In this document: piece after piece, positions 4,334 through 31,616 of the stretch
Numbering within the stretch: position 1 is the first letter of the stretch
Layout of the letters: each line of letters starts with the position of its first letter
Source: Prevotella sp.
GTDB taxonomy: Bacteria; Bacteroidota; Bacteroidia; Bacteroidales; Bacteroidaceae
Length of the DNA: 45,748 nucleotides
Assembly: GCA_017615355.1 (NCBI GenBank)
Contig: JAGAAJ010000016.1
Coordinates: 1-45,748, forward strand
Direction of reading: 5' to 3'
Notes under the pieces: generated by a model
The model's database searches: none
What the model saw: the letters and a program-made list of their open reading frames with translations, nothing else
What the model was told of the DNA's origin: nothing
Translations under genes and position numbers: made by a program

Positions 4334-5452
4334 TTATTGTTGGTGTTTGTTGTGTGCAGTTGATAGCAGGCCGCAGGCGGCAAGGATGTCCTCTCCGCGG
4401 CTGGCCCTGATGGTGGCAATGACGCCATGACGGGTGAGATAGTCGCGCAGCTGTTCCATGCGCAGCGAGTCGCTGGCAGGAAGGTCGACGTCGGGGATGG
4501 CATGGAAACGGATGAGGTTGACGCGGCACTCTAAACCTTGTACCAGCTTTACAATCTCCTGACCATGCTGCAGGCTGTCGTTCAGGCCGCCGAAGCAGAT
4601 GTACTCGAAAGAGCAGCGGCGCTGGTGCGTGAAGTCGTACTCCTTGAGCAGGGCCACCGTCTCGCTGATGGGCATCGCCTTCTCGGCAGGCATCAGCAGC
4701 AGGCGCTGTTCGTGCAAGGGAGAATGCATCGAGATGGCCACATGGCATTGGCTCTCGTCGAGGAATCGCTTCAGTTTGTTCCTTACTCCTACCGAGCTGA
4801 CTGTGATACGTTTAGGACTCCAGCCATAACCATTACTTGAAGTCAGTATCTTCGTGACTTTCAGTACGGCGTCGAGATTGTCCATCGGCTCACCTTGTCC
4901 CATAAATACAATGTTCGTGAGAGGCGTGAGATACGAGGTGTGAGCTGTGGAGTGGGGTAGGGAGTAAATCTGATTGAGAATGTCAGCAGCAGTCAGCTGA
5001 CCTTCGAAGCCCTGCTTGCCCGTCTGACAGAACAGACAGTTCATCTTGCAGCCCACCTGACATGACACACAAAGCGTGGCGCGGTCTTCGTCAGGGATAT
5101 AGACGGTCTCCACAAAGCGGGACGTATGAGCTTCTGCGTCCTGTTGACAGTCATCGCTTTTCGGAAGAGCAGAGAGGAGAGTGGTTGTCCTGACGGGGAA
5201 GAGAAACTTGATGGTGCCGTCCTTCGATTCCTGGCTGGCTACAGGTGGCATTGCCCCTACGGTGTAGCGCTCGCTGAGGAGCTGACGTGCCGCTTTCGAC
5301 AGGTTTGTCATCTCATCAATCTCAGTTACATGCTTCTCATACAGCCACTTAGCCAACTGCCCGCCCGTATAGGCAGGCAGCCCCAAATCGATGGAAATCT
5401 GCCGCAATTCATTTGCGTTCAAACCCATCAATGGCTGCTTTGCGTCAATCAT
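4334..5452 (-). CDS. rlmN: 23S rRNA (adenine-2503-C2)-methyltransferase, radical SAM
   Basis: Dual-specificity methyltransferase of the RlmN/Cfr family, methylating A2503 of 23S rRNA and, in related enzymes, A37 of some tRNAs. The radical-SAM CxxxCxxC cluster is C135, C139 and C142 in CQVGCKMNCLFC. The methyl-carrying Cys near the C-terminus is about C360 in DILAACGLL. FMGQGEPMDN is the GEP motif. Two segments look like lineage insertions: about residues 93-112 (SALPKSDDCQQDAEA) and about 161-178 (SLPHSTAHTSYLT). The second is encoded by a minisatellite-like stretch at 4916-4949. The start MIDAKQPLMGL aligns with the family N-terminus. A TACCTTTG promoter element ends four bases before the ATG, so the mRNA should be leaderless. 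Confidence 0.95.
   Translation of the reverse strand: MIDAKQPLMGLNANELRQISIDLGLPAYTGGQLAKWLYEKHVTEIDEMTNLSKAARQLLSERYTVGAMPPVASQESKDGTIKFLFPVRTTTLLSALPKSDDCQQDAEAHTSRFVETVYIPDEDRATLCVSCQVGCKMNCLFCQTGKQGFEGQLTAADILNQIYSLPHSTAHTSYLTPLTNIVFMGQGEPMDNLDAVLKVTKILTSSNGYGWSPKRITVSSVGVRNKLKRFLDESQCHVAISMHSPLHEQRLLLMPAEKAMPISETVALLKEYDFTHQRRCSFEYICFGGLNDSLQHGQEIVKLVQGLECRVNLIRFHAIPDVDLPASDSLRMEQLRDYLTRHGVIATIRASRGEDILAACGLLSTAHNKHQQ
4916..4949. repeat. Minisatellite-like G/A-rich segment inside rlmN
   Basis: The plus strand reads GTGAGAGGCGTGAGAT then ACGAGGTGTGAG. This resembles the GAGAGGTGTGAGGTGAG units inside the tandem ABC ATPase gene (30452-30490), but here the coding strand is the complement. 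It encodes an extra TAHTSYLTP-type segment just before the conserved LTNIVFMGQGEP. The relationship is inferred from word similarity only. Confidence 0.4.
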
Positions 5453-11960: not shown

Positions 11961-12093
11961 CCTTTCTCGCGTGCGCATCTTTAAATAATGAGAAAAATGC
12001 ACGGACTTTTGCTAATCTCTCACTTTTTCTATCCATAGAAAAGAATTGTATAAGAAAAAAGTCGTACCTTTGCACGCAAGCGAGCGAGAAAGG
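11961..12093. promoter_or_regulatory. Separated inverted repeat flanking the PL11 promoter
   Basis: CCTTTCTCGC (11961-11970) and its exact complement GCGAGAAAGG (12084-12093) bracket the PL11 promoter, 113 bp apart. The second half lies just after the expected transcription start. It could be a paired operator for a looping regulator, or chance. No regulator gene is adjacent. Confidence 0.3.
12065..12072 (+). promoter_or_regulatory. -7 promoter element of the PL11-GH3 operon
   Basis: TACCTTTG followed by CAC, 78 bp before the PL11 start codon. The -33 region is degenerate (a TTG only 16 bp upstream), which fits a promoter that needs an activator. Confidence 0.65.
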
Positions 12094-12150
12094 ATTCTTG
12101 CGGCAAAAACTGTACTGGCAACAAACGAATCAATGATAACTATCTGTAAC

Positions 12151-15100
12151 ATGAAAAGACTTACAATTCTTTTATTGACAATGGTAGCCGGATGGACTAG
12201 CCTGATGGCACAAAGACAAACCGACATACTCGACCGTGGCCTTGTAGCTGTACCGTCTGGTTCGGGTGCTTTCGTCAGCTGGCGCATTTTCGGTGAGGAA
12301 TACTACGACACACAGTATAACCTCTACCGCGACGGCGTGAAGATAGCCGGGCCGCTCAGCGTCTCTAATTACACTGACACTGGCGGCAAGGCTGGCTCGA
12401 AATATCAGGTGGCTGCCGTTATGCGAGGCCAGGAGCAGGAGAAATGCGCCGAAGTGACACGCCTCAATCAGCAGTACATTCAGTTTGCCGTGAAAAGCGT
12501 GATGAGCCGTAGCGGTAGCAATATCACCAACGACTATAGCATCAACGACATTGCGCTGGCCGACGTCGATGGCGATGGAGTCTCGGAGTTCATCGTGAAG
12601 CGCAACTATGTGGATGGTAGTTCGGTGGATGCCATTGCCTATAACTTGCTTGAGTGTTACAACATCAAGGGTGACAGATTGTGGTACATAGATTTGGGCC
12701 CCAACATGGTGAGCGGCCCTGATGAGCAGTACGACGCCGTGGGCTATGACTGGGATGGCGACGGCAAGGCCGAAATCCTATTGCGTGGTGCCGATAACAT
12801 GATCATCTATCATGCGGATGGTACCACCACCAACATCGGCAATATGAACGTGAACACCCGTAACACCGTGCTGCAGACGGCCAATATGACCTACACCAAC
12901 ACAGGCGCTGAATACCTGCTCTATTTAGATGGTGCGACAGGCAAGCCATATCCCATCGGCAATAATGGCCAGCTGTGGATGACCTATCCGTTGCCTCGTG
13001 GCACGGCAGATGATTGGGGCGACGGCTATGGACACCGTTCAACGAAGCACTATTTCGGTGCTCCCTTCCTTGATGGACGCCATCCTTTCATCTTCCTTGG
13101 CAGAGGCTGCTACACCAAGCACCACATGAAAGCCTTCACCGTTAATCCCGAGACGCACCTGCTGACGCTTTACTGGGAATGGAAAGGCGAGTCGTGGCCT
13201 TATCATGGTCAGGGCTATCATAATTATGGTATTGCCGATGTGGACTGGGACGGCCGTGACGAGATTGTCTTTGGCTCAATGGTTATCGATGACAACGGTA
13301 AGGGACTGCATACCACAGGATTGGGTCATGGCGATGCACAACATTGCTCTGACTTCGACCCCTACCGTCATGGTCAGGAGATTTTTGCCTGTAACGAGAA
13401 CTCACCGGCCATGAACTACCGCGATGCTACTACAGGAAAAATATACTATCGTTTACAGTCGACGGGCGATGACGGACGTGCTCTCTGTGGCAATTTCTCC
13501 AACACCTATCCAGGCGCCATAGGTCATAGTGCACAGTCGGGTACCATCTCGTGTGTCTCTGACAAGGTCATCAGCGGCGGTCCCACGGGCTTCACCAACA
13601 ACTGGCGCATCTACTGGGATGGCGACTTGCTGGAGGAAGGACTCGATGGAGCCAGCTCGCGTGAAGGCGCTGCCCGAGTGTTCAAGGCTGACGGCAGCAT
13701 CGTCTTCACTGCCGATGGCACTGCCAACTGCAACTGGACGAAGAACACGCCATCGGCTGCCGGCGATGTGCTGGGCGACTGGCGTGAGGAAATCATCGTC
13801 CGCACCTCCGATAATAAATATGTACGTGTGTACACTACTGATAAGTCCACGAAGTGGCGCAACTATTCGCTGTGGCACGACCACCAGTATCGTCAGGGAA
13901 TGGTGTGGGAGAGCATGGGCTATAATCAGCCGCCTCACACCAGCTATTTCCTCGGTGAGCTGGAGAACATCACCATTGCTCCGCCGCCACTCACCATGAC
14001 CAATCGCATAGAGGTAGCCAACAATGGCACTATCGGCACTGAGCACAACGACCAGCATGTTATTGTTTGCGAGACCAATAACACACATATCAACGTGGCC
14101 GAAGGCGCCAAGCCGTGGGTGGTAACGTTCAATGTGCCATCGTGGGTGCAGGGCACTAACAGCACCAACACTTCGGGCAATCCCGCCATCAAATACACTT
14201 ACTACACATGCAATGTCTCTGGCGCTGCTTTTACAGGCGATATGCGTCTGGTTAAACAAGGTGATGGTACGCTCGTCCTGCCGAAGACCGACAATACCTA
14301 TACTGGAGAGACCGATATCTGGGCAGGAAAGCTTGTCTTCGACGGCTCACTCCTGAACTCCAGGCTGTGGCTTAACCGCTTTGCAACGCTCATTAGCGAC
14401 GGTGGTACTTTCCGCAGCATCCACATGGACTACGATGCCAAGCTGTTGCCTGGTGGCGAGAACCAGGTTGGCACGGTCACTACTGACTCGCTGGTGCTGG
14501 GCTTCGGCTCGCGTGTCGTCTTCGACATCGATGAGCAGGTCGATCAGGTGAACACGAAGTATATCAGCGTAGAGACGAAGAACTGGCAGTACGGGCCGAA
14601 GTATCTGCAGCCAGTCTTCGAGTTTAATATCCTCGGCAACAGCGATCTGATGCCTGGAGAATATCTCATTGGCACAGCAGAGACCCTGAAGGGCAATCTG
14701 GATAATATCCGCATCGAGGGGTTGGGCACGAAGATGAAGAGCAGCTTGCAGCTGACTGACGGAAAGCTCTTCCTCGTCATTTCCGGTACCCGTGATGCTG
14801 GCAGTGTCGTTTGGACAGGTGCCACGTCAGCCATCTGGAACATGGCCGAGTCGGAAAACTTCGCCAATAGTGAGGGCGAGAGCGATATCTTCGTCAGCGG
14901 CGACAACGTGCGCTTCGACGATACTGCCAAAAAATTCACGGTTACGCTGAATGGTGAACTGGAGGCCGATACAGTCTTCGTGACCAACGAGACGAAGTCC
15001 TACACATTCAGCGGCACTGGTAGCCTCGTAGGCAATACCACGCTAGTGAAGCAGGGCAATGGCATGTTGACCATCAAGACCGATAATACCTATACAGGCG

Positions 15101-16554
15101 GCAATCGCTTGTCGGGCGGCGTTGTCAGCGTCAGCTCATTGGCCAATGCCAACCAGCCGAAGGGTAACCTTGGGGGCGTCACCACGGGAAAGAAATTCAT
15201 CATGGAGAACGGTGCCGAGCTGCGTACTACGGCTGCTGTCACCAATGGCACGAATATCTATTTTGAAGGTGATGAAGGTGGCATCATTAACAACTCACAG
15301 GACTTTATCGTTGACAAGGCGATGGCCGGCACCGTCCTCACAAAGAAGGGTGCAGGGTGGATGAAGCTGAACATAGCCAACACCTCCCTCAACCGTCTCG
15401 TCATAGTGGCCGGCACCGTGCAGTGCATCAATGCCAACACACCTGCAAAGACGGTGGAATTCCAAGGCGGAACGCTCAACGAGAATACCAGCTCCAGCTA
15501 TGCTATCCATGTGCCGCAGGGTAAGACGGGCAACTGGTATATGGCCAACCGCTCGACATATACCAACAAGGTGACGGGCGAGGGCACGCTTAATGCCTAT
15601 TGTACAACAGAGAAAGGCAACGGCTGGTACGCCACTCGTACACCGGTGCAATGCAACTTCAGCGACTTTGAGGGCACGCTCAAGCCTATGTCGAGCCAGG
15701 ATGGTGATGTCAAGCGATTCACGCTGAACACCTCCACAGGTATGCCAAAGGGCACGATGAACATTGCCTCCGACGTGGAGGTACAGAACAGCGGTAAGAC
15801 CTTCCGTATTGGCAAGGTCACAGGTGCCGGCAAACTGGGTGGCAGCTGCACCTTCAGCAATAGTGGCAGCGTGGGTGCCAATACCTGGCAGGTGGGCAAT
15901 GACGACGACTGGACGACAGGTGTCCGTGTCACCTCCGATGCTCATTTCCAAAAGGTGGGCGCAGGAAAGGTTATTTGGAATGGTGCCAGCGACAATACCG
16001 GCACGACCACCGTCAAGGAGGGTGAGCTTTGTATGGGTGTCAGTGGCCTGTTGGGTACTGGAAACCTGACAGTTGATGCCAATGCCGTCTTCTCCAGCGC
16101 TAGCAAGACGAAGGTGCTGAAAAACTCGGCTGTCCTCATCAAAGGCACCATGCTGGTCAATGCCTCGCGCTGCGCTACCAACGTCAGCGATGGATGCACC
16201 AGTTTCTACTTCGAGAAGAAACTTACCATCAATGGCACCATCCGTGTCACCGCTACCGACCATACGCTGCAGGTGGGCGATAGCATCCGTGTCTTCTCTG
16301 CTGCTTCCTTCAGCGGTACGCCGACGTTTGAATTCGAGGGTGATGTGGAGTGGGACACCAGCCGCATCAGCGAAGGACTACTCTTCGTAAAGGGTATCAA
16401 TACTGCCATTTCTGACATCGTCACCGACTTTAAGCCGCGCAACATCTATGATATTCGCGGTCGACTGGTCCGCCGCAATGCCACCACCACCAAGGGCCTG
16501 CCCGCTGGTGTCTATGTCTGTGAAGGCCGCAAGTTCGTTGTGAAGCCAGAATAA
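12151..16554 (+). CDS. PL11-type rhamnogalacturonan lyase with autotransporter-associated repeats and C-terminal sorting tail
   Basis: A 1467-residue secreted enzyme. The start at 12151 gives the signal peptide MKRLTILLLTMVAGWTSLMAQ; the frame stays open 35 codons further up but overlaps the promoter. Residues about 22-620 match family 11 rhamnogalacturonan lyases (DRGLVAVPSGSGAFVSWR, NLYRDG), a beta-propeller with calcium loops such as DVDGDGVSEF, DWDGDGKAEI and DWDGRDEIVFG. These cleave the rhamnose-galacturonate backbone of pectin. The C-terminal half carries at least four repeats of autotransporter-associated beta-strand type (LVKQGDGTLVL, LVKQGNGMLTI, LTKKGAGWMKL, FQKVGAGKVIW), each followed by a Thr/Gly-rich turn. 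The last 37 residues (IYDIRGRLVRRN, GLPAGVYVCEGRKFVV) resemble a type IX secretion C-terminal signal. Being twice the usual PL11 length, it is probably surface-exposed. Confidence 0.85.
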   Translation: MKRLTILLLTMVAGWTSLMAQRQTDILDRGLVAVPSGSGAFVSWRIFGEEYYDTQYNLYRDGVKIAGPLSVSNYTDTGGKAGSKYQVAAVMRGQEQEKCAEVTRLNQQYIQFAVKSVMSRSGSNITNDYSINDIALADVDGDGVSEFIVKRNYVDGSSVDAIAYNLLECYNIKGDRLWYIDLGPNMVSGPDEQYDAVGYDWDGDGKAEILLRGADNMIIYHADGTTTNIGNMNVNTRNTVLQTANMTYTNTGAEYLLYLDGATGKPYPIGNNGQLWMTYPLPRGTADDWGDGYGHRSTKHYFGAPFLDGRHPFIFLGRGCYTKHHMKAFTVNPETHLLTLYWEWKGESWPYHGQGYHNYGIADVDWDGRDEIVFGSMVIDDNGKGLHTTGLGHGDAQHCSDFDPYRHGQEIFACNENSPAMNYRDATTGKIYYRLQSTGDDGRALCGNFSNTYPGAIGHSAQSGTISCVSDKVISGGPTGFTNNWRIYWDGDLLEEGLDGASSREGAARVFKADGSIVFTADGTANCNWTKNTPSAAGDVLGDWREEIIVRTSDNKYVRVYTTDKSTKWRNYSLWHDHQYRQGMVWESMGYNQPPHTSYFLGELENITIAPPPLTMTNRIEVANNGTIGTEHNDQHVIVCETNNTHINVAEGAKPWVVTFNVPSWVQGTNSTNTSGNPAIKYTYYTCNVSGAAFTGDMRLVKQGDGTLVLPKTDNTYTGETDIWAGKLVFDGSLLNSRLWLNRFATLISDGGTFRSIHMDYDAKLLPGGENQVGTVTTDSLVLGFGSRVVFDIDEQVDQVNTKYISVETKNWQYGPKYLQPVFEFNILGNSDLMPGEYLIGTAETLKGNLDNIRIEGLGTKMKSSLQLTDGKLFLVISGTRDAGSVVWTGATSAIWNMAESENFANSEGESDIFVSGDNVRFDDTAKKFTVTLNGELEADTVFVTNETKSYTFSGTGSLVGNTTLVKQGNGMLTIKTDNTYTGGNRLSGGVVSVSSLANANQPKGNLGGVTTGKKFIMENGAELRTTAAVTNGTNIYFEGDEGGIINNSQDFIVDKAMAGTVLTKKGAGWMKLNIANTSLNRLVIVAGTVQCINANTPAKTVEFQGGTLNENTSSSYAIHVPQGKTGNWYMANRSTYTNKVTGEGTLNAYCTTEKGNGWYATRTPVQCNFSDFEGTLKPMSSQDGDVKRFTLNTSTGMPKGTMNIASDVEVQNSGKTFRIGKVTGAGKLGGSCTFSNSGSVGANTWQVGNDDDWTTGVRVTSDAHFQKVGAGKVIWNGASDNTGTTTVKEGELCMGVSGLLGTGNLTVDANAVFSSASKTKVLKNSAVLIKGTMLVNASRCATNVSDGCTSFYFEKKLTINGTIRVTATDHTLQVGDSIRVFSAASFSGTPTFEFEGDVEWDTSRISEGLLFVKGINTAISDIVTDFKPRNIYDIRGRLVRRNATTTKGLPAGVYVCEGRKFVVKPE

Positions 16555-19224: not shown

Positions 19225-20217
19225 TTATAGTCTCATGCCGAGGAAGGCACGGGCGCGCCATTTGTTCTGGTTGACTACTATGACATCATCGTCGAAGACG
19301 GAGTTGTTCATGACGAGGGTGGCACCAGCGAAGTAGCGGGGCGAGAAGTTGCGGACGATGGCTACTCGCTCGTTGAAAATCATATTGAAGCGCATGTGCT
19401 GAGCCCGCTTACGCTCGCCGTTCACAGTGAAGTTATTGCGGTTGTAGACCACGAAGGTGGGGAGCATGGAGAAGTGGAGCAGCCACCGTTTGCCAATCAC
19501 CCAGTTGTAGCCGTAGCCGCCGCCGATGCCAAAGTGGCCGATGTAGATGCGTGTGTCGGGGGCATCGGGATTCCTTTCTTTCAGTTGGTCAGTGGTCTCG
19601 ATGCTACCGCCTTGATAGCTGATGCCAGCCAGCCATGAGCCTGCCGAGCGGCGCTGTATGTAGCTTTGGGTGAAAGCGGCAGGGAAGGAGAAACGGCGAT
19701 GGGTGAAGGTGTAGTAACCCGCCAGATTGATGACCTTCAGCGTGACATCGCCTGACTCTAAGCGACTGTCATTATCGCCGCGCTCAATGTCGCCTGCCAG
19801 CGACTCCGACCTCTGATAGCTGAAATCGAGGCTCAACTTGCTGCTGTAGTAGTTGAGGTTGAATTCATAGTCCTTATAGATGCCACTCCATTTGTAGGGG
19901 TTGATGGCCATTCCGATGCCTATCCCACGGTAGATTCCGGCTATGGAAAACGTCGTCTTATGGCTGGTGCTGAGGTCGGCCTTGCAATAGGTGTCGTCCA
20001 CCGTTCCTTTTGCATGGAACGAGTTGCCTGTCTGGTTCATCCTCACCTTCAGCGTCAACTTACCCTCCGGACGCACTACATAGTTCGTGTCGTAGGGCGT
20101 GTGGTAATAGCGCTCCGTCAGTACGCTGTCCACTCGCGACCTGATCATCTGGTCGCGAGTCTGAGCACTCGCTGAGGTCATCGCAACGATCGTGGCTATC
20201 AGAAAAATCTTTCTCAT
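19225..20217 (-). CDS. DUF4421-family protein, predicted outer-membrane
   Basis: A 330-residue protein with a signal peptide (MRKIFLIATIVAMTSASAQ). The start at 20217 lies 8 nt after the upstream stop codon; an ATG at 20232 overlaps the previous gene and would lengthen the signal n-region, so it is less likely. The sequence matches the Bacteroidota DUF4421 family: RYYHTPYDTNYV, GKLTLKVRMNQTG, SIAGIYRGIGIGMAINPY, and many alternating aromatic/polar strands ending RARAFLGMRL, which suggests a small outer-membrane beta-barrel. No function is established. It is the last gene of the exporter operon, so a role near that exporter in the envelope is possible. It converges with the GH3 gene across 60 bp with no obvious terminator. 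Confidence 0.75.
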   Translation of the reverse strand: MRKIFLIATIVAMTSASAQTRDQMIRSRVDSVLTERYYHTPYDTNYVVRPEGKLTLKVRMNQTGNSFHAKGTVDDTYCKADLSTSHKTTFSIAGIYRGIGIGMAINPYKWSGIYKDYEFNLNYYSSKLSLDFSYQRSESLAGDIERGDNDSRLESGDVTLKVINLAGYYTFTHRRFSFPAAFTQSYIQRRSAGSWLAGISYQGGSIETTDQLKERNPDAPDTRIYIGHFGIGGGYGYNWVIGKRWLLHFSMLPTFVVYNRNNFTVNGERKRAQHMRFNMIFNERVAIVRNFSPRYFAGATLVMNNSVFDDDVIVVNQNKWRARAFLGMRL

Positions 20218-20225
20218 TGTTTTGT

Positions 20226-21293
20226 TTACCATTGCCTAAGCTTCCCGATGGCCTCACGTACGGAAGGCGACAGGGCGGGGATGTTGTGCGAGTTGGCGTA
20301 GGAATCCAGCTGGTCGAGCGTCATCTGGGGGCTGTAGTCTTCCTTCATCGACTTCTTCTTGTCCTTCCACTCCTGCTCGTCCATATAATAGTGGTCGGTG
20401 GCGTAGCTCTCAATAAAGAACTTCACATGGCTCTTCTTGTCGTTATACTCCCAGTGATTCAAGTCCATCATGTAGTTTTCTACAGCATGGCCCGGATCCG
20501 TATCGTCGTCAAAAATCGTTGTGAACTGATACTCGTAGCCCTTTTCCTCGCGTTTCTTCAGCATCTTCGTCTCTCCCTTGGCTTTGTTGGCATACATTTG
20601 CATCTTCCCGGCATCAAGGGTCATGCGCCACTGACCGCCAGCGCGTGTAAACTGGCCTATGACGCCCTCCGGATTGCTGTAAGTGGTATGGGTGGAGTCG
20701 TCGACAGTAGCCGTCACGAAAAACTTGTTTTTCATGCTCTTCTCCATGCCCTGTAAATCATTGGTGCCCGCTATGCCAGCATGAAATTGTTCTGCCCTGA
20801 CGAACCATGTGGAGGCGGCTCCCATCTTATTGCAATGTTCGGCGTGAGCCTGGTAATAGCTGCCGTGCTCCATCTTCTTTTTCTGGATGTTGTAGGCGTT
20901 GGGCATGATGCCGCTTAGGAAGTAGCAGAGCGAGTCGTTGCGATAGACATAGACGCGGTAGAGTACCTCGACATAAATGAGAGGCTTGGGCTTCACCACG
21001 ATTTCTTCGAGGTCATAGCCAATATCTTCCATTGTGATGAGACCCCCTTGTAGCGAGGCAATGGTGATGAGCTGCGGCTTGTAGGCCACGTGGGTCACGG
21101 CCACCTTGGCGGCTCCCTTCACGTCGGCGAGCACGCCGTCGAGGCCGGTAGTGCCGATGTAGGTGCCGTCCTCGGTCAATACGCTGACGAGCGGGATGCC
21201 ATTGCCGTCGTTGTCAACCACTTGTATGCGCTGTGCATGAACGTTCACTGCAGTCATCAAGGCGACTGCGGCCATCAATAGAATCTTTTTCAT
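20226..21293 (-). CDS. Secreted protein with CarboxypepD_reg-like N-domain (paralog B of the exporter operon)
   Basis: A 355-residue exported protein of unknown function. Signal peptide MKKILLMAAVALMTAVNVHAQ. Residues about 22-80 form a carboxypeptidase-regulatory-like beta-sandwich (VVDNDGNGIPLVSVLTEDG, GTTGLDGVLADVKGAA, VTHVAYKPQL), the kind found at the N-termini of TonB-dependent transporters. A MEDI motif, EIVVKPKPL, and a unique domain of about 260 residues rich in Tyr and Lys follow. It is paralogous to the protein at 26203-27336. The N-domains are nearly identical; the middle regions have diverged; the ends match again (MTLDQL, HNIPALSP). It lies 12 nt after a permease gene and 8 nt before the DUF4421 start, inside one operon. 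Confidence 0.7.
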   Translation of the reverse strand: MKKILLMAAVALMTAVNVHAQRIQVVDNDGNGIPLVSVLTEDGTYIGTTGLDGVLADVKGAAKVAVTHVAYKPQLITIASLQGGLITMEDIGYDLEEIVVKPKPLIYVEVLYRVYVYRNDSLCYFLSGIMPNAYNIQKKKMEHGSYYQAHAEHCNKMGAASTWFVRAEQFHAGIAGTNDLQGMEKSMKNKFFVTATVDDSTHTTYSNPEGVIGQFTRAGGQWRMTLDAGKMQMYANKAKGETKMLKKREEKGYEYQFTTIFDDDTDPGHAVENYMMDLNHWEYNDKKSHVKFFIESYATDHYYMDEQEWKDKKKSMKEDYSPQMTLDQLDSYANSHNIPALSPSVREAIGKLRQW

Positions 21294-21305
21294 ATACGAT
21301 TGAAA

Positions 21306-22511
21306 TTATGCATTTTCATATTTCCTTGCCAGCCGGAATTGGTGGCGGTAGACAAGGCAGGCCATGCCGAGATAGGCGGCGGCCTGGATCCAGAGGATAC
21401 GTATCTCAGGGAGAATCTGGCTGACGCTGGCACCCATGGAGTTGACACGGATAAAGGCACGCACGCCGAAGGTGCTGGGGAAAAGCCAAGATACACCTTG
21501 CCAGGCACCAGGAATGCTGGACTGCGGCCAAGACACACCCGTCAGGAAGAGCAACGGCACGGAGACGAATACCATCAGCAGCATCACGTTCTCGCGATAG
21601 CGCACTATACACGAAACGGTCATGCCAAAGAAGATGCTTGCCAAGGTGTAGGGCAGCAGCATCCACAGCAGCGTCCAGCCGTTGGCCTGTTGCGGGAAGG
21701 AGAACATCGCGGGGACGGCCATCGATAGGTAGGCGGCAGCGACAGCGCCAATCATGCCGTAGCAGAGGGCCTTGCCCCAAACGATGCGATAGGCCCCGCG
21801 GTAGTGCGGATCGTCGTCAGGAATGAGCTGGCCGTTGCGGTGCCGCTCGCGTGACGTACCGGCAGCCATGCCGATGCCAAGGGCGAGGGCCTGCTGCAAG
21901 ATGAGCATGAGCACGGCGGGCAGCACACAGGAGCCATAGCCACCCGAAGGATTGTACATCGCCACGCCATCGACGGCTAGTGGCTGGGCAGTAATGGCAT
22001 CCTCACGCTTGGTGAAGTTACGCGCCTTCTTGATGTTGACACCTATGCCGAGACGTGTGGCCTCGACCATGGCGGTTTGATAGACGGCTTTGTAGGCGAG
22101 CATGAGCGACATATCGCAATAGACGCTGACGGTGGCCTGTTCACCGCGGTTAATGCGCTCGGCGAAGTCAGACGGGATGAGGTAGACACCCTTGACCAGC
22201 TGTCGGCTGACGAGCGAGCGTGCCTCGTCGAGGTCTTGGGCGTAATATTTCACCCAGACGTCGGACGTGGCGTCGCAGTCGTTGATGAACTGGCGCGAGA
22301 GTGCTGAATGTGACTGGTCGACCACCACCACGGGTGTCTCGTGCAGCGTCTCATTGTTGTATATCCACGAGTAGAGTAGCGGGTAGCCCAACGGCACGAC
22401 GAGGAGGAACATCAGCACGCCCTCGTCCTTGAACACCTTCACCATTTCATGCCGCCAGATGTAGAACACATCGGTAAAGTGCTCGCGTAATCTATTAAGG
22501 AATGTAGACAT
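21306..22511 (-). CDS. ABC-2 type permease (second of the pair)
   Basis: A 401-residue inner-membrane permease of the ABC-2 (YhhJ/YbhR-like) family, used in drug or small-molecule export. One N-terminal membrane segment (GVLMFLLVVPLGYPLLYSWIY) is followed by a large periplasmic domain (VVVVDQSHSALSRQF to about residue 215). Five hydrophobic segments follow, beginning SCVLPAVLMLILQQALALGIG and including MLLMVFVSVPLLFLTGVSWP. It overlaps the other permease gene by 17 nt, so the two are probably made together as a heterodimer. No nucleotide-binding subunit is encoded in this operon. Confidence 0.87.
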   Translation of the reverse strand: MSTFLNRLREHFTDVFYIWRHEMVKVFKDEGVLMFLLVVPLGYPLLYSWIYNNETLHETPVVVVDQSHSALSRQFINDCDATSDVWVKYYAQDLDEARSLVSRQLVKGVYLIPSDFAERINRGEQATVSVYCDMSLMLAYKAVYQTAMVEATRLGIGVNIKKARNFTKREDAITAQPLAVDGVAMYNPSGGYGSCVLPAVLMLILQQALALGIGMAAGTSRERHRNGQLIPDDDPHYRGAYRIVWGKALCYGMIGAVAAAYLSMAVPAMFSFPQQANGWTLLWMLLPYTLASIFFGMTVSCIVRYRENVMLLMVFVSVPLLFLTGVSWPQSSIPGAWQGVSWLFPSTFGVRAFIRVNSMGASVSQILPEIRILWIQAAAYLGMACLVYRHQFRLARKYENA

Positions 22512-23667
22512 AGTTCAGCATTGCGTTTTTTACTTTACGGAGTACAAACCAGGGCAGCAGCGTGAAGGCTACAAGTGCCACGAGGTGGAACCAGACATCG
22601 ATGACGGGGAAGCCGTTGAGCACCGTCGCCTGATAGATCATCCAGTAGTGGCGCAGAGGGAAGAGCCACGACATGGCCTGCAGCGGTGCATCCATGCCGG
22701 CCACGGGAAACGCCGAGCCGCACATCGATATGCTGAGCACAAACCATAGCGAGCTGATACTCATCGACATGCGCAGCGAGGGCATCAGGCCAAAGGCAAA
22801 GATGCCGAAGCCGAGCGAAGCAAACACCTGCAGCAGACTGAGCCGCACAATGCTCCACACGCTACAAAGCTTCGGAAAGTGCAGCACGTCGAAAATATAA
22901 TACTGATAGATGAACATGATGAGCAGGAACACCAGCGCATGGACGAGATATTTGCCCAGGATGGCCACGACGATGTTGCCGTCGGCACGGGCGAGCCATT
23001 CCTTGCCTGTGTCGAACTTCATCTCCATGCCCAGCGTGTAGGCCGACAACAGCGCCATGAAGAGCATCAGGATGCCCGGCACGAAGACCGTGGTCAGTGC
23101 ATAGTTGTAGCTGCCCTCGGGGTTGGCTATCATGTGGGCATTGACGGTCACGGGCTGTAGCGAGGCCTTGATCTGCTGATCAGACGCCCCCTTGGCCGAG
23201 AGCACGGCCTTTCCCATTGCCATCGATCCGAGCAGGCCGATGGTCTTCATGTCCTTCATCGCCAGCGAACCGGCCGTCAGGCAGGTCATCGTGTAGTAGT
23301 ACGAGATCTTCGGCTGCCGTCCCGCCATCAGCTTCGCTGCCGTGCCCTCGGGGATATAGAGGTAGGCATTGACCTTGCCTTCCTGCATGGCGCTGCGAGC
23401 CTCGGTGACATTGGCAAAGCGATAGGCCACGCGAGATGTCTGCATGGCATCGAGATTGCGAATGAGGCTGCGCGACGTAGCACTATTGTCCTGATCTACC
23501 ACGCCGATGGGCAAGTCCTTCGGGATGCCCTCGTCGAGCATCGTGGTGAAGAACAGCACCAGCACCAGCGGGAACACGATCATGCAAAAGCCGTAGATCT
23601 GATTCTTACGGACAATGATGCCGAGCTCACGCAACGCGATGTTGAGGATTTGAGAAATATACTTCAT
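22495..23667 (-). CDS. ABC-2 type permease (first of the pair)
   Basis: A 390-residue ABC-2 family membrane protein with the same layout as its neighbour: one N-terminal helix (YGFCMIVFPLVLVLFFTTM), a periplasmic domain opening with LPIGVVDQDNSATSRSL, then a C-terminal block of five helices (VFVPGILMLFMALLSAYTLG, YLVHALVFLLIMFIYQYYIF). The HlyD-family gene ends 1 nt before its ATG. With HlyD and TolC it would form a tripartite export channel of the YbhGFSR or YhiI-RbbA-YhhJ type. Its ATPase must come from elsewhere or be absent. Confidence 0.87.
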   Translation of the reverse strand: MKYISQILNIALRELGIIVRKNQIYGFCMIVFPLVLVLFFTTMLDEGIPKDLPIGVVDQDNSATSRSLIRNLDAMQTSRVAYRFANVTEARSAMQEGKVNAYLYIPEGTAAKLMAGRQPKISYYYTMTCLTAGSLAMKDMKTIGLLGSMAMGKAVLSAKGASDQQIKASLQPVTVNAHMIANPEGSYNYALTTVFVPGILMLFMALLSAYTLGMEMKFDTGKEWLARADGNIVVAILGKYLVHALVFLLIMFIYQYYIFDVLHFPKLCSVWSIVRLSLLQVFASLGFGIFAFGLMPSLRMSMSISSLWFVLSISMCGSAFPVAGMDAPLQAMSWLFPLRHYWMIYQATVLNGFPVIDVWFHLVALVAFTLLPWFVLRKVKNAMLNYVYIP

Positions 23668-23668
23668 A

Positions 23669-24658
23669 TCACTTCTCCAGTATCACAGACATACCGGGCC
23701 TTACGCCATCGATTGTCTCTGCCGGACGGGCCTTCACCTCAAATGTCTTCTGATCGTACTGGCCGCTGGCCTTCGTGGCCTTCCACACGGCAAACGAGCC
23801 CTTGTCCTTCATCGACGTGACCTTCATCTTCGTCTCCTTGTCGAGTGCGGGGATGCGGACGGTAATCTCCTGACCCACCCGGATGTCCTTCAGCAAGTCC
23901 TCACGGATGTTGAACGTGGCCCACTGGTCGTCCATCACGGCTATCGACATGATGGGAGTACCCGTACCCACGAGCTCGCCCACCTTCGGATAGACATCGG
24001 TCACTTCGCCGTCCATCTGGGCTATCTGCACCGTCTCACGCACATAGCCCTCCACCTCCTGTACGGCACCACGGGCCTGTCCTGCGGTGGCTGCTGCGGC
24101 ACGGCGTTCCTCCTGGCGGGCACCGTTCACGGCCATTTCATACTGGCTCTGCGCCATCTTCACCTGAGCCTGAGCCGACTTATACAAGGCCTCGGCCTCG
24201 TCGAACTTCTGAGCCGAGATGACCTCCTCCTCGAAGAGCACTTTTACACGGTTGTACGATTTCTCGGCAATCTCCAGTCCGGCCTTTGCCTGCTCTAAGA
24301 GCTGGGCGGCAGCCTGCACCGTCTCGCGGCGGGCACCGTTCTGTGCCATCTGCTCCAAGGCCTGGGCAGCGTCGGCAGCACTCCGTGCCTGCACCATCTT
24401 TGCCTCCACCTCGGGCGACTCGATGATGGCCAGCGTATCGCCTGCCTTCACATGGTCGCCCTCCTTTACACGCAGTTCCTGGATACGGCCGGGCACCTTG
24501 CCCGACACACGGTATTCCTCAACTTCCATCTCGCCCTGAATCACCTCCGGGTCACGGCCCAAGGCCAGGAAACCGATGAACGCCACGATGCCTACTACTA
24601 TTGCGAAACCTGCCACAGCCAGCAGGATATTGTTATGCTGTTGTTTTGCTTTATCCAT
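23669..24658 (-). CDS. HlyD/EmrA-family periplasmic adaptor
   Basis: A 329-residue membrane-fusion protein linking inner-membrane permeases to TolC. One N-terminal transmembrane helix (ILLAVAGFAIVVGIVAFIGF) is followed by a biotinyl-lipoyl half (GRIQELRVKEGDHVKAGDTL). A long Ala/Gln/Glu-rich alpha-hairpin spans about residues 80-215 and contains two copies of an NGARxE motif (NGARRET and NGARQEE). Then come the second lipoyl half (AQMDGEVTDVYPKVGELVG) and beta-barrel domains ending RPGMSVILEK. It sits between tolC (45-nt gap) and the first permease gene (1-nt gap). Confidence 0.92.
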   Translation of the reverse strand: MDKAKQQHNNILLAVAGFAIVVGIVAFIGFLALGRDPEVIQGEMEVEEYRVSGKVPGRIQELRVKEGDHVKAGDTLAIIESPEVEAKMVQARSAADAAQALEQMAQNGARRETVQAAAQLLEQAKAGLEIAEKSYNRVKVLFEEEVISAQKFDEAEALYKSAQAQVKMAQSQYEMAVNGARQEERRAAAATAGQARGAVQEVEGYVRETVQIAQMDGEVTDVYPKVGELVGTGTPIMSIAVMDDQWATFNIREDLLKDIRVGQEITVRIPALDKETKMKVTSMKDKGSFAVWKATKASGQYDQKTFEVKARPAETIDGVRPGMSVILEK

Positions 24659-24703
24659 TTTAAAAATTCTTATTACGTTATTACGTTATTTCGTTATCAC
24701 GAT

Positions 24704-26185
24704 TTATTGCAATGTACCGAGCGCCTTCTGCAATTCCACCTGCGAGAGCCTGACACCAATCTGGGCATCAATCATCTGCGACTGAGCCAACTGCCAAGCT
24801 GTCTGCGCCTCCATGACTACGGTGTAGGAGGCTGTGCCTTCCTTGAAGGCAAGGTTCGCCATGCGCAGGTTCTCATCGGCGTTGGCAACGTTCGACTGTG
24901 CCATCACGAGTTTCTTCTGCGCCTCCTTCACCTTGAAGTTGCTTTGCCGCACTTGCAGGCTGATCAGCTCGCGTGCATCGTCCAACTCCAGGTTGGCCAT
25001 AGCTGTGGCACCCTTCGAAGCACGTATCTTGTATTTCACGTCGCCCCAGTTCCAGATAGGCACACGTACCATCACTCCCAAATTCCAGACGCCGGCATAT
25101 TTCTTCTCAAAGCCGTTGAAGTTGTTGGGGTTGCTCACAATATAGCCGCCCGTCAGTACCACCTGTGGTAGGTTGGTGGCCTTCAGCACATTCGTTGTCT
25201 GCTTGGTGATGTCAACCGTGTTTTGCAGCATCTTCAATTCAGGGCGGGCCTCGAAATCTCCGCCTATAGAGTATTCACTCCCCTCGCCATTCGGAGAGGG
25301 GTCGGGGGTGAGGCTCACTTCTATCTCCTCGTCCTCGGGCAATCCGCAGAGTTGGCAAAGCAGCATCTTCGCCAATGCCAGGCCGTCGCTGACCTGCATC
25401 AGCGCCATCTCGGCCTCGTTCACCCTGACGCTGACGGTCAGGCCATCGCCCTTGGTAGCCAGGCCCAGGTCAATCATTCTCTGCACGTCGCCCTTTAGCT
25501 TTCGCACCAGCTCCACATAGCTCTCGGCCAGTTTCTCCTTGTATCGCAACGACACCACCTGCCAATAGGCCAGGTCGATATTATATAAGGTGTGCTGGCG
25601 TTTCATCTCCAACGAGTTCTCGGCCATCTCTTCATTGATATCCGCTATCTTGTTGGCAGCCACGATGGCCCCACCCATGTACACAGGCTGTGTAACCACG
25701 ACCGATCCTGCCACCGTGTGCCGAGTGTCGGTGCGGAAAGCATCCACGACACCCGCTCCAATCTGATTGATCGTACCGGCCAGCTGGGCCATGTCCTGCG
25801 CCATCTTCGCCTGGGTGGTGGCGGGCAGGGCCGATGTCAGCGGCGACAAGGCATTCTGCAGCCCCGTCGCCAGATTTGTGCCCATGTTGTTCAGCGTCGA
25901 TTTCTGGTCGTCGTTCAGGATGGATATCTCCTTGTTCATCCACAGATAGCCACCCAAAGCATTGACCCTCGGCAGATACTGCGTGCGCGCCGACTTCCGC
26001 AGGTTGGCGTTCACCTCCTGCTTCACCCTCGCCACGCCTATCTGCTTGTTGTTTCTCAGCGCCATCGCCCTGCAACTGTCGAGCGTCAATACCCTTTGCG
26101 CCCCTCCCGTCATCGGCAATAGCACTAGAAGCATGAGCGCTAAAGCCCGTGCCATTAATGTCATTTTAGCTTTTGTTTTGTTCAT
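24704..26185 (-). CDS. TolC-family outer-membrane efflux protein
   Basis: A 493-residue outer-membrane factor with a signal peptide (ARALALMLLVLLPMTGGAQ), forming the exit duct of the tripartite exporter. Typical features are VLTLDSCRAMALRNNKQI near the mature N-terminus, a second internal repeat (DFEARPELKMLQ), and C-terminal MRMANLAFKEGTAS- and AQTAWQLAQSQMIDAQIG-like segments. A foreign-looking stretch SLTPDPSPNGEGSEYS (about residues 290-305) lies where the two structural halves join. It is the translation of a GC-rich hairpin repeat (25276-25313). The frame is kept, so the protein is probably functional. Confidence 0.92.
   Translation of the reverse strand: MNKTKAKMTLMARALALMLLVLLPMTGGAQRVLTLDSCRAMALRNNKQIGVARVKQEVNANLRKSARTQYLPRVNALGGYLWMNKEISILNDDQKSTLNNMGTNLATGLQNALSPLTSALPATTQAKMAQDMAQLAGTINQIGAGVVDAFRTDTRHTVAGSVVVTQPVYMGGAIVAANKIADINEEMAENSLEMKRQHTLYNIDLAYWQVVSLRYKEKLAESYVELVRKLKGDVQRMIDLGLATKGDGLTVSVRVNEAEMALMQVSDGLALAKMLLCQLCGLPEDEEIEVSLTPDPSPNGEGSEYSIGGDFEARPELKMLQNTVDITKQTTNVLKATNLPQVVLTGGYIVSNPNNFNGFEKKYAGVWNLGVMVRVPIWNWGDVKYKIRASKGATAMANLELDDARELISLQVRQSNFKVKEAQKKLVMAQSNVANADENLRMANLAFKEGTASYTVVMEAQTAWQLAQSQMIDAQIGVRLSQVELQKALGTLQ
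25276..25313. repeat. GC-rich hairpin repeat inserted in frame in tolC
   Basis: On the coding strand this reads CTCACCCCCGACCCC, TCTCCGAATGGCGAGG, GGAGTG and translates as LTPDPSPNGEGS. It contains a 6-bp stem (25280-25285 with 25296-25301). Elements that translate as (L)TP(D/N)PSPxGEG are known as dispersed repeats in many bacterial genomes. Confidence 0.8.
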
Positions 26186-26202
26186 TGTTTACACCGATAT
26201 TT

Positions 26203-27336
26203 TTATTTCTTTTTTCCTGTTTGCATTGTCAGTGCCTGGATGGCTTTCTGCTGCTCGGGTGCGAGGGCGGGAATGTTGTGGGCGCGCTCGTATTCTGCCA
26301 GCTCGTCGAGGGTCATATCGCCATAGTAGGGCTTGCTGATCTCCTTGCCGCGGACCTTCACATCAGCCTCGTCCATATAGCCCTTGTCGGCGGCATAGAG
26401 ATAGGTAATCGTTGTTTTCTTACCCTTGCCTGAGTCGTGCACCCAATAATCCTGTTCCATCACGAAACCATCACGTTGCACGGCTCCGTCTTCGTCGAGT
26501 TTGAAGACCTCCGTGTATTGATAGGTGTAGTTTAGCTTCTCCCTGCGCTCTGCCATTTTCACATCGTTCTTATTGCCGCTTACCTTACCGGCATAAATCT
26601 GCATCTGTCCGCCGTCAAGCGTAGTGATGGACAGGCCGTCGTCGTGAAGGATTTGTCCCATCACTCCCTCTGGGTTTCTCACAATCCAGCGGTTCTCGCC
26701 GTCGGGCTCTACGCTTGTCTTATATTTTTCCTCGTATCTCTTGTCTTTACGAAGGCCTGTCTCTATAGGCGAGGCTGCCAACTTTACGCCCTGTTCTGCC
26801 TCATAATGTAAATCCTGAGTGTTCCAGGTCAAAGCTTTGTTGGCTGCACCACCGAATGCCCATGCCCCACGGACTTTACTCTTGTAATTGTTCTGGATAT
26901 CATACGACACGGGCAGGATGCCGGCCGTATAGACGCGCAGCGAATCTTCGATATAGCTGAAGGCGCGGAAATAGAATTCCACATAGAGATAGCGCTTGGG
27001 CTTGACCACCACCTCGTCGATTCCGTAGTCGATGTCCTCCATCGTGATGCGGCGTACGGGACCCCACCCCTGCCCCTCCCCTTCATGGGAGGGGAGTTCG
27101 GCCACGGTGACCAGCTGCGGCTTGTAGGCCACGTGGGTCACGGCCACCTTCGCGGCTCCCTTTACATCGGCCAGCACGCCGTCCAAGCCAGTGGTGCCGA
27201 TGAGGACACCATCTTCGGTCAGCACGCTTACCAACGGAATGGCATTGCCATCGTTATCTACTATCTGAATCTTCTGCGCCTGTGCGCTCATGGCAGCCAT
27301 CAAGGCCACTGCGGCTATCAGGAATTTCTTTTTCAT
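26203..27336 (-). CDS. Secreted protein with CarboxypepD_reg-like N-domain (paralog A, first gene of the exporter operon)
   Basis: A 377-residue exported protein; the start at 27336 gives the signal peptide MKKKFLIAAVALMAAMSAQAQ. The frame runs 38 codons further but through the promoter. Residues 22-78 are a CarboxypepD_reg-like domain almost identical to that of its paralog at 20226-21293. At about residues 78-94 it carries PSHEGEGQGWGPV, absent from the paralog and encoded by a hairpin repeat. It then rejoins the paralog alignment at ITMEDI and EVVVKPK. The C-terminal part has diverged but ends with the shared MTLDELAEYERAHNIPALAP. Function unknown. As first gene of the seven-gene operon it probably acts with the exporter, perhaps as cargo, chaperone or envelope partner (inference). 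Confidence 0.7.
   Translation of the reverse strand: MKKKFLIAAVALMAAMSAQAQKIQIVDNDGNAIPLVSVLTEDGVLIGTTGLDGVLADVKGAAKVAVTHVAYKPQLVTVAELPSHEGEGQGWGPVRRITMEDIDYGIDEVVVKPKRYLYVEFYFRAFSYIEDSLRVYTAGILPVSYDIQNNYKSKVRGAWAFGGAANKALTWNTQDLHYEAEQGVKLAASPIETGLRKDKRYEEKYKTSVEPDGENRWIVRNPEGVMGQILHDDGLSITTLDGGQMQIYAGKVSGNKNDVKMAERREKLNYTYQYTEVFKLDEDGAVQRDGFVMEQDYWVHDSGKGKKTTITYLYAADKGYMDEADVKVRGKEISKPYYGDMTLDELAEYERAHNIPALAPEQQKAIQALTMQTGKKK
27061..27100. repeat. GC-rich hairpin repeat inserted in frame in paralog A
   Basis: An 8-bp perfect stem (CCCCTCCC at 27073-27080 and GGGAGGGG at 27087-27094) with a 6-nt loop, preceded by ACCCCACCCCTG. It resembles the tolC element read in the opposite direction relative to the gene. 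Comparison with paralog B, which lacks it, shows it as an in-frame insertion. Confidence 0.8.
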
Positions 27337-27395: not shown

Positions 27396-27427
27396 CAAAG
27401 ATAATTTTTTTTAGCGAATTTACCAAA
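27396..27427 (-). promoter_or_regulatory. Promoter of the seven-gene exporter operon
   Basis: Minus strand: TTTG (27427-27424), 20-bp A/T-rich spacer, TATCTTTG (27403-27396), 59 bp before paralog A. No comparable element was found in the short gaps between the seven downstream genes. Confidence 0.8.
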
Positions 27428-29799: not shown

Positions 29800-31038
29800 T
29801 TAAGTAAGAGTTAGATGTCGGTTGATGCATGAGGGAAGCTCCTCGTCGTAGTGGGTGACCATGATGAGGGTTTTCTGCGGGTTGCTGCAGTAGTCGTTGA
29901 TGATGTCCTTCACCAGCTGTTGTCGGGGCATGTCGAGACCGTGCATCGGCTCATCGAGGATGAGCAGGTCGGGACTCTTCACGAAGGCTCGGCACACCAA
30001 AATGAGCCGCTGCTCTCCGCTGCTTAATTGTGTGAACGAACGCTGTGCTAAGTGTTCAATACCAAAGCGTTGCATCCACTTCATGCATTGTTGCTTTTCC
30101 TCGTCGGTGGCTCGGACATAGAGGCCGACGGTGTCTTTCAATCCGCTGGCCACGATGCTCAATGCGGGCAGGTTGCGCTGGTAGGAACGGTGCAGCTCGG
30201 GCGAGACATAGCCGATGCGTCGCTTGATGTCCCAGATGCTTTCGCCGGAGCCTCGCTGGTGGCCGAAGAGGGTGATGTCGCAGGCATAGCTTTGCGGGTT
30301 GTCGGCACAGATGAGCGATAGCAGCGTCGACTTGCCGCTGCCGTTGCGTCCCTGCAATGCCCAATGCTCGCCCTGACAGATGGTCCATGAAAGGCGGTCG
30401 AGGATGGTGCGATTGCCGTAGCGGATGGTGACGTCGCGGAGTTCAACAATCTTCTCACCTCTCACCTCACACCTCTCACCTCTCACTTCATCCGCATACT
30501 CCGGTATCTCGTTGGGTCTTGAAACCAGCAGATAGAGTGTCATGCCCTGCTGACGCAGCTGTTGCAATTGTTCTGACAGCATGGCTCGTGCCTCGGAGTC
30601 AAGGCCGATGAAGGGATTGTCGAGGATGAGTGTCTTGGGGTTGGCCATGAGCGTCTTGACTAACTGCATCTTGCGCAGCTCGCCGCTTGAGAGGGCGATG
30701 ACCACCTTATCTAATAGTGGCTCCATACCCATCTGGCTAAAGAGCTGCTGCTGTAGTTGCCGACGTTCAGGTGTGTCGCTGCCCGAGAGCAGGAATGAGC
30801 GTTCCAAGGCCTGGGCGACGGTGGGCGTCTCCTCGTCGATGTCATGCTGGTTCCACCGCTGCTGCAGGTAGTAGCTGCGGTCGGTGGCTGTGCCGTAGGT
30901 GTCGCAGAAAGCCACATAGCGCACGCTGTCGCTCTTCATCTCGCGGCGCATACGCTCGGCCATCAGCGTCTTTCCGCTGGCATTCAGCCCGTAGATGACG
31001 ATTATCCTTCCTTGTCCTCTGGCTTCTGTGGCGTCCAT
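29800..31038 (-). CDS. Tandem ABC ATPase (ModF-like), soluble
   Basis: A 412-residue protein with two ABC ATPase domains and no membrane segments. Domain 1 has a degenerate Walker A (GLNASGKT), signature [13 protein letters not shown] and Walker [13 protein letters not shown]. Domain 2 has Walker [13 protein letters not shown], signature [12 protein letters not shown], Walker [13 protein letters not shown] and switch His in MVTHYDE. The layout resembles ModF/PhrA, whose role is unsettled. The linker contains [13 protein letters not shown], the translation of a minisatellite. The start at 31038 ([12 protein letters not shown]) overlaps ruvC by 37 nt; a further ATG at 31074 is possible. As a soluble tandem protein it is not an obvious partner for the ABC-2 permeases at 21306-23667. 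Confidence 0.85.
30452..30490. repeat. Minisatellite inside the tandem ABC ATPase gene
   Basis: A run of CTCACCT/CTCACACCT units on the plus strand, reading GAGGTGAGAGGTGTGAGG on the coding strand and translating as [13 protein letters not shown] between the two ABC domains. The period is 7-8 bp with a larger unit of about 24 bp that keeps frame. Confidence 0.85.
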
Positions 31039-31616
31039 AGTTTTTGCTGATTCTTGTTCACAAAGTCCTTCCATCCGCGATAGTGCGGGGCATCGGTCTC
31101 AGGGCGTCCCATCTGCAGGTAGTGGCAGTAGGCGGCAGCCAACGCATCGGTGGCATCCATGAAACGGCCCATCTCTTCCTGGGGAATCTTCAGCAGGCGC
31201 TGCAACATGCCAGCCACCTGTTCCTTCGAGGCACCGCCGTTGCCAGTCAGCGCCATCTTGATTTTCATGGGAGCATACTCATGGATCGGAACGCTGCGTC
31301 CGATGGCAGCGGCAATAGCCACACCCTGTGCACGGCCTAATTTCAGCATCGACTGCACGTTCTTGCCGAAGAACGGAGCCTCGATGGCCATCTCATCGGG
31401 CAGGTAGGACTGGATGATACCTGAAACGCGCTCAAAGATGTGTCCCAGCTTGAGATAGCCGTCTTCAAACTTGCGCAGGTCGATGATGCCCATTGTCACC
31501 ATAGTGGCCTGCTGACTGGTGCGCCTGCCTGAGGCTGTGGTGGCAGATGAAACCTTCAGCACACCGTAGCCCATAATGTTCGTACCAGGGTCAATGCCAA
31601 GAATAATCTTATCCAT
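31002..31616 (-). CDS. ruvC: Holliday junction resolvase RuvC
   Basis: Endonuclease that cleaves Holliday junctions with RuvAB. The 204 residues include the catalytic Asp near the N-terminus ([17 protein letters not shown]), the second acidic residue in [12 protein letters not shown], and the C-terminal [12 protein letters not shown] with the last two Asp ligands. It is about 20 residues longer than typical RuvC because of a tail ending [11 protein letters not shown]. Downstream, the ABC ATPase gene overlaps its 3' end by 37 nt. The TAACTTTG promoter ends 7 bases before the ATG, so the transcript has almost no leader. Confidence 0.95.

Follow-up and report, generated by a model that had tools for sequence, protein, structure and literature searches.

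Among the known systems closest to the one reported here are the Escherichia coli exporters YbhG-YbhF-YbhS-YbhR and YhiI-RbbA-YhhJ, in which an HlyD-type adaptor is combined with two ABC-2 membrane parts and with an ATPase protein or domain (YbhF or RbbA). EmrAB-TolC type pumps also consist of an adaptor and TolC, with an inner-membrane part of the major facilitator superfamily (MFS) and no ATP-binding cassette (ABC) ATPase, and the YhgE/Pip proteins of Gram-positive bacteria are ABC-2-like membrane proteins without an ATPase of their own that occur as single proteins and not as adaptor/TolC systems. Here we analyze an exporter operon at positions 19225-27336 of a 45,748-nucleotide stretch of Prevotella sp. 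DNA (assembly GCA_017615355.1, contig JAGAAJ010000016.1), referred to in full as the window. Like the E. coli exporters, it has an HlyD-type adaptor and two ABC-2 membrane parts, whereas it has neither their ATPase nor the motif E[KRW]ExG[TS] that their membrane parts carry. With EmrAB-TolC it would share an adaptor and TolC joined to an inner-membrane part that uses no ABC ATPase, but this part is an ABC-2 pair instead of an MFS protein, and it resembles YhgE/Pip in having ABC-2-like proteins without their own ATPase but differs in having the adaptor and TolC. The window permeases match the membrane half of RbbA (E 3.8e-18 and 2e-20, far below the model's cut-off), and one of them, ABC2a, weakly matches the YhgE/Pip NCBIfam model (E 0.0058, also far below cut-off).

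Seven open reading frames (ORFs) make up the operon, running on the minus strand from 27336 to 19225 in the order paralog A, TolC, HlyD, ABC-2 permease a (ABC2a), ABC-2 permease b (ABC2b), paralog B and DUF4421, with intergenic distances in that order of 17, 45, 1, -17, 12 and -7 nucleotides (nt). Between 19225 and 27600, the Bacteroidota-type promoter pattern TTTG-N19-23-TAnnTTTG has a single match, located at 27396-27427 on the operon's strand and some 60 nt ahead of gene A; the pattern occurs nine times in the window versus 0.29 expected from shuffling. The ORFs, distances and pattern match bear out the first-pass annotation, a reading of the letters alone, which had described seven genes on one strand with gaps of 1-45 nt or overlaps behind one promoter. 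The exporter core consists of a TolC-type outer-membrane channel (493 residues, 24704-26185; PF02321 (OEP), E 3.7e-53), an HlyD/YbhG/EmrA-type periplasmic adaptor (329 residues, 23669-24658; PF16576 (HlyD_D23), E 1.2e-13, and PF13437), ABC2a (390 residues, 22495-23667; PF12698 (ABC2_membrane_3), E 5.1e-43) and ABC2b (401 residues, 21306-22511; PF12698, E 1.9e-46). The best models for the adaptor are of YbhG, MdtN and EmrA types, and its best NCBIfam model is PRK03598 (E 3e-32, under its cut-off). Of the features of an ABC-2 tripartite exporter of the YbhGFSR or RbbA-YhhJ type, the unit has the ABC-2 permease pair with an HlyD-type adaptor but neither an ATPase subunit or domain encoded with the permeases nor the loop motif; as for type I protein secretion, Pfam and NCBIfam revealed no ATPase domain in the permeases and, among the seven genes, no cargo of a named family.

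The seven-gene unit contains no ATPase gene, and this absence is conserved across the exporter family. Two types of the exporter could be separated, a window type and a sister type, and we compared 81 loci, namely the window's own and the best 80 of 213 found with ABC2b, with 41 sister-type loci as controls (L049 and L120-L159; L160, a window-type fragment, was excluded). Six of the 81 that are at most 70% identical or have sister-type neighbors were retained (L319, L321, L322, L323, L325 and L326). A profile of 17 ATPase domains from the window's own genome, scanned over six frames, found a match no more than 8 kb away from the permeases in only one of the 81 loci, the window itself, where it marked a ModF-like gene, and at none of the other 80 within the limits set by contig ends. 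Among the controls it found one match, on the opposite strand (L124), and it marked the ATPase gene in all five distant operons fetched that have the arrangement HlyD-ATPase-ABC-2-ABC-2 (L161, L162, L163, L165 and L166).

Besides having no ATPase gene in their operon, the permeases of this exporter family lack a loop motif that all ATPase-linked permeases compared with them possess. E[KRW]ExG[TS], located in a cytoplasmic loop between two predicted membrane helices, was present in 10/10 ATPase-linked Bacteroidota permeases from the five operons and in all four E. coli proteins (YbhR, YbhS, YhhJ and RbbA). It was found in none of 152 permeases of the 81 loci (78 ABC2b and 74 ABC2a, out of 162 possible, the others being short, cut or hidden by other ORFs) and in none of 78 control permeases. 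In the motif-less permeases, the altered loops are conserved in their own right. The observation that a nucleotide-binding subunit is missing, made in the first-pass annotation for this locus, thus extends to the family and is accompanied by loss of the usual loop motif.

We considered the ModF-like gene as the missing ATPase and rejected it. This twin-ATPase gene (29800-31074) shares the operon's strand and is located beyond the promoter, 2.5 kb upstream of gene A, between ruvC and a serB-like gene; it is not near any of the other 80 exporter loci. The annotation had proposed looking for an ATPase gene that co-varies with the exporter, and over 299 genomes of the genus this candidate did not track it: a ModF-like match at E 1e-60 was present in 218, including G117 and G252, both lacking a strong match to the adaptor, and was not found at that threshold in G003, G010, G016 and G026, which are all 99% complete and carry the quartet.

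Exporters with this core of TolC, HlyD and two ABC-2 permeases are widespread in Bacteroidota. The window's own genome has a second TolC-HlyD-ABC2a-ABC2b quartet on contig C139, with the HlyD 70% and the permeases 56% and 61% identical to those of the window, and neither the paralogs nor DUF4421 nor an ATPase gene adjoins it. ABC2b matches at E 1e-42 or better were found in 35/36 same-genus genomes (the exception being G005). The window type, with an adaptor at least 82% identical, comprised 22 loci in 21 of the 299 genomes, and the loci found with ABC2b, as judged from the best 80 of 213, were nearly all from Prevotella, Prevotellaceae or Bacteroidales of ruminants, with a few from Muribaculaceae. 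Four further families of the order (L147, L152, L156 and L157) also have quartets without an internal ATPase gene, as do, with identities of 24-29%, members of another order and of other classes (L377-L379). Sister-type quartets often have a coiled-coil gene of about 298 residues ahead of TolC. The example on contig C139 (L049:5707-6603) encodes a 298-residue protein, probably a membrane-anchored coiled coil, that matched no family over a cut-off. As a common subunit this gene was rejected, being a sister-type gene present within 8 kb at 22/41 controls versus 3/81 loci.

The rumen Prevotella subtype of the exporter recurs in tight co-directional runs with envelope proteins, which include patatin-Omp85, DUF4421, DUF3943 and a DUF3089 hydrolase, joined in some cases by the paralog family. 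Within 8 kb, we detected patatin-Omp85 at 28/81 loci (Fisher 2e-6), DUF4421 at 26 (8e-6), DUF3943 at 24 (2e-5), the DUF3089 hydrolase at 14 (0.0025) and the paralog family at 9 (0.03, counting L278, a fragment at a contig end), each against 0/41 controls, while AraC regulators were near 18/81 loci versus 3/41 controls (0.04); these Fisher values overstate significance because the loci come from related species. Family names are from Pfam scans of representatives and the counts from a six-frame scan, except that the numbers of co-directional runs (27 with patatin, 21 with DUF4421 and 8 with paralogs, among the 81) come from non-overlapping ORF calls. Patatin-Omp85 directly precedes the first called exporter gene in 24/81 loci. 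The locus closest to the window, L276, encodes a paralog, a 257-residue secreted protein, TolC, HlyD, ABC2a, ABC2b and DUF4421 in one run. Its first two genes, adjacent to each other, share a 106-nt 5' leader plus signal peptide that is about 89% identical (4171-4276 and 5335-5440), and their mature proteins are unrelated, indicating that a secretion leader was duplicated or swapped.

The DUF4421 protein of the window (335 residues, 19225-20232, minus strand; PF14391, E 2.9e-51) scored 175.2 bits against a family cut-off of 32.1. It is probably an outer-membrane beta-barrel, judging from features that include a C-terminal strand conserved over 25 aligned sequences; no PDB relative was found up to E 10, and a literature search for DUF4421, with limited coverage of subscription papers, returned no paper. 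Homology between DUF3943 and DUF4421, hinted at by a merged cluster, was rejected after one DUF3943 protein gave no BLAST match to 27 DUF4421 proteins up to E 1. According to the parts of PMC12419801 covered here, DUF3943 is the 'YfiM-Griddle' lipocone domain, which acts at the outer membrane and is tied to outer-membrane barrels, and its operons may encode a patatin-like lipase. Barrels and patatin-like lipases stand beside DUF3943 in those operons as they do in relatives of the window locus, but the same parts name no ABC-2/HlyD/TolC exporter, and the paper does not contain the term DUF4421. A PlpD-type (type Vd) patatin-Omp85, in which patatin is fused to an Omp85 barrel as at the related loci though not in the window unit, has been reported in Bacteroides fragilis (PMC4319957), and that paper contains neither HlyD nor ABC-2 as a term.

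These partners are real but interchangeable. On quick trees, at least six changes of the exporter label were forced by supported branches for DUF4421 and at least four for patatin, and as few changes were needed in 14/500 and 17/500 shuffles, respectively, which points to some clustering of the labels by descent as well. Away from the exporter, patatin was also present at 6/17 fetched DUF4421 loci, and in L350 a paralog-family gene accompanies both. Two observations weigh against exclusivity: DUF4421 proteins at least 65% identical to that of the window occur in about 49/299 genomes, mostly on contigs without the exporter, and some of these genomes (G109, G291) have no adaptor match. The window genome encodes a patatin on another contig that is 80% identical over 563 residues.

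Paralogs A (377 residues, 26203-27336) and B (355 residues, 20226-21293), both on the minus strand, are 44% identical over 374 aligned positions (E 9e-95) and have signal peptides as judged by eye. Paralog A had no Pfam or NCBIfam match up to E 0.1, and B had only two weak model matches below cut-off (E 0.081 and 0.029). Positions 5-100 of the paralog-family profile match the N-terminal part of solved SusC homologues (8aa4, E 4.9e-9), which upholds the TonB-receptor-type N-domain recognized in the first-pass annotation, while the roughly 250 residues after it belong to no named family. Plug and beta-barrel domains of a SusC/TonB-dependent receptor are missing: Pfam gave no match over its cut-offs, and the proteins are far too short to contain the receptor barrel. 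As a guess, the SusC-like N-domain could serve to dock the paralogs on a partner in the outer membrane.

A tree of 37 paralog-family proteins (nine exporter-linked genes, L278 left out, and 28 of 41 long matches elsewhere) required four changes of the exporter label, all forced by well-supported branches, and none of 500 shuffles needed as few, showing that the label is clustered as well. Gene A has as its nearest relative a copy on contig C43 of its own genome, gene B groups with a gene of G163, the L276 gene groups with one of G028, and the six other exporter-linked genes form one branch. An origin of A and B by tandem duplication was rejected on the basis of their separate, well-supported branches. 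Two adjacent paralog-family genes from different branches were also seen at L351 (G163:C17:5794-8028), where the 14 kb examined contain no exporter. With 43 long matches to the family in 299 genomes, gene density predicts a nearby paralog by chance at about 0.08 of the 81 loci versus the 9 seen, a calculation that ignores relatedness. In-frame GC-rich palindromic stretches occur in gene A near residue 81 (27040-27100) and in TolC near residue 292 (25270-25315); that of gene A is absent from eight other aligned paralogs, and L276 has a different insert there. Elsewhere in the window, positions 12046-16554 encode a 1502-residue protein with rhamnogalacturonan lyase (family 11) domains and passenger-associated-transport repeats from about residue 735.

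The proposal that the paralogs and DUF4421 are dedicated partners of the exporter therefore survives in part. DUF4421 is recurrent near the subtype and not near the controls, and the paralogs joined the exporter at four places on their tree. The paralogs are not obligate, DUF4421 is present at only a third of the loci, the core is widespread without partners, as on contig C139 and in the sister type, and A and B belong to different branches. Clusters usually lacking the paralogs and DUF4421 had been named in advance as an outcome that would speak against the proposal, and this is largely what we observed, with many contigs ending nearby. A role of A, B and DUF4421 as cargo found no support; the commoner partners, patatin-Omp85 and DUF3943, point to lipid handling at the outer membrane.

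As the best overall explanation, which we put forward tentatively and at somewhat less than an even chance, the tripartite exporter encoded here would work without a canonical ABC ATPase and move an amphiphilic envelope compound to the outer membrane. Its two ABC-2-fold permeases belong to the inner membrane, the HlyD-type adaptor spans the periplasm and TolC forms the channel in the outer membrane. By analogy with EmrAB-type pumps, an ion gradient may drive the permease pair, or else the loading and unloading of substrate may do so. The patatin-Omp85 and DUF3943 neighbors make an amphiphilic envelope compound the likeliest substrate, with phospholipids, lyso-lipids and lipid-linked products as possible examples. 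On arrival at the outer membrane, such a compound may be received, placed or modified by the DUF4421 barrel and the secreted proteins. A literature search, with limited coverage of subscription papers, found no description of such a system.

It is also possible, though we consider it doubtful, that the unit is a conventional ABC exporter. Its ATPase would then be encoded away from the operon, shared with other permeases and docked by the altered loop. The two permeases are full-length PF12698 proteins, the conservation of the altered loops is as expected for continued binding of a partner, and in the genome, which is 89.7% complete, 29 matches to the ABC_tran domain score above that family's cut-off. 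Against a shared ATPase stand the 80 other loci with no ATPase gene nearby (as far as their contigs reach), the failure of the ModF-like candidate, lying beyond the promoter, to track the exporter, and the loss of a motif common to all ATPase-linked relatives compared. Several points nevertheless count against the best explanation given above. The motif was defined after inspection of the alignment and is descriptive, not an independent test; that its loop contacts the ATPase is an assumption based on ABC-2 structures; and part of the motif survives as KEREE in two distant quartets, L378 and L379, the latter with an ATPase gene on the TolC strand some 4 kb ahead of TolC. Most of the genomes were assembled from metagenomes and have short contigs, and at 49/81 loci and 23/41 controls the sequence extends for less than 8 kb to at least one side, making all counts lower bounds. 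In addition, 55/81 loci show no DUF4421 within 8 kb, and the window unit itself contains neither patatin nor DUF3943.

Whether the partners have any joint function with the exporter matters for two further explanations. The locus might encode a general drug or bile efflux pump with the partner genes as passengers, as its HlyD/TolC architecture and YbhG, MdtN and EmrA adaptor models recall multidrug pumps, AraC-type regulators lie near a subset of loci and sister-type quartets as a rule have no partners (0/41); we regard this as unlikely, given that the same few partner families arrived repeatedly at this exporter and are absent from the 41 controls. Alternatively, the exporter locus could be an insertion hot spot that gathers mobile genes for secreted proteins. 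The scatter of the paralog family (28/37 tree rows elsewhere) and the leader duplicated between two unrelated neighbors in L276 are consistent with this, but the partners often lie on the operon strand with small gaps, patatin and DUF4421 pair away from the exporter too, and nearby paralogs far exceed the expectation from gene density, so that we find a hot spot improbable. Because partners joined the exporter repeatedly, a working relation can be argued, with a hot spot still conceivable.

An ATPase-free lipid exporter would also permit a bolder and more doubtful generalization, namely that this Bacteroidota family of ABC-2-fold tripartite exporters gave up ATP hydrolysis altogether. Its permeases would have lost ATPase docking and become a gradient-driven or passive conduit that takes lipids from the inner membrane to the outer one, where swappable patatin-Omp85, DUF3943, DUF4421 and SusC-N-domain proteins would form the receiving end. 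ABC-2 permeases are assumed to need an ATPase, and what surprises here is that a widespread exporter family has lost its ATPase connection in a conserved way, down to the motif. The family occurs in nearly all examined genomes of the genus, and the missing motif gives reason to think that the usual ATPase contact is gone. It therefore makes ATP-free export by the ABC-2 fold directly testable. Outer-membrane lipid traffic in this phylum is little understood, and the recurrent association of the exporter with patatin-Omp85, DUF3943 and DUF4421 also brings these three poorly known families of the outer membrane into a shared context.

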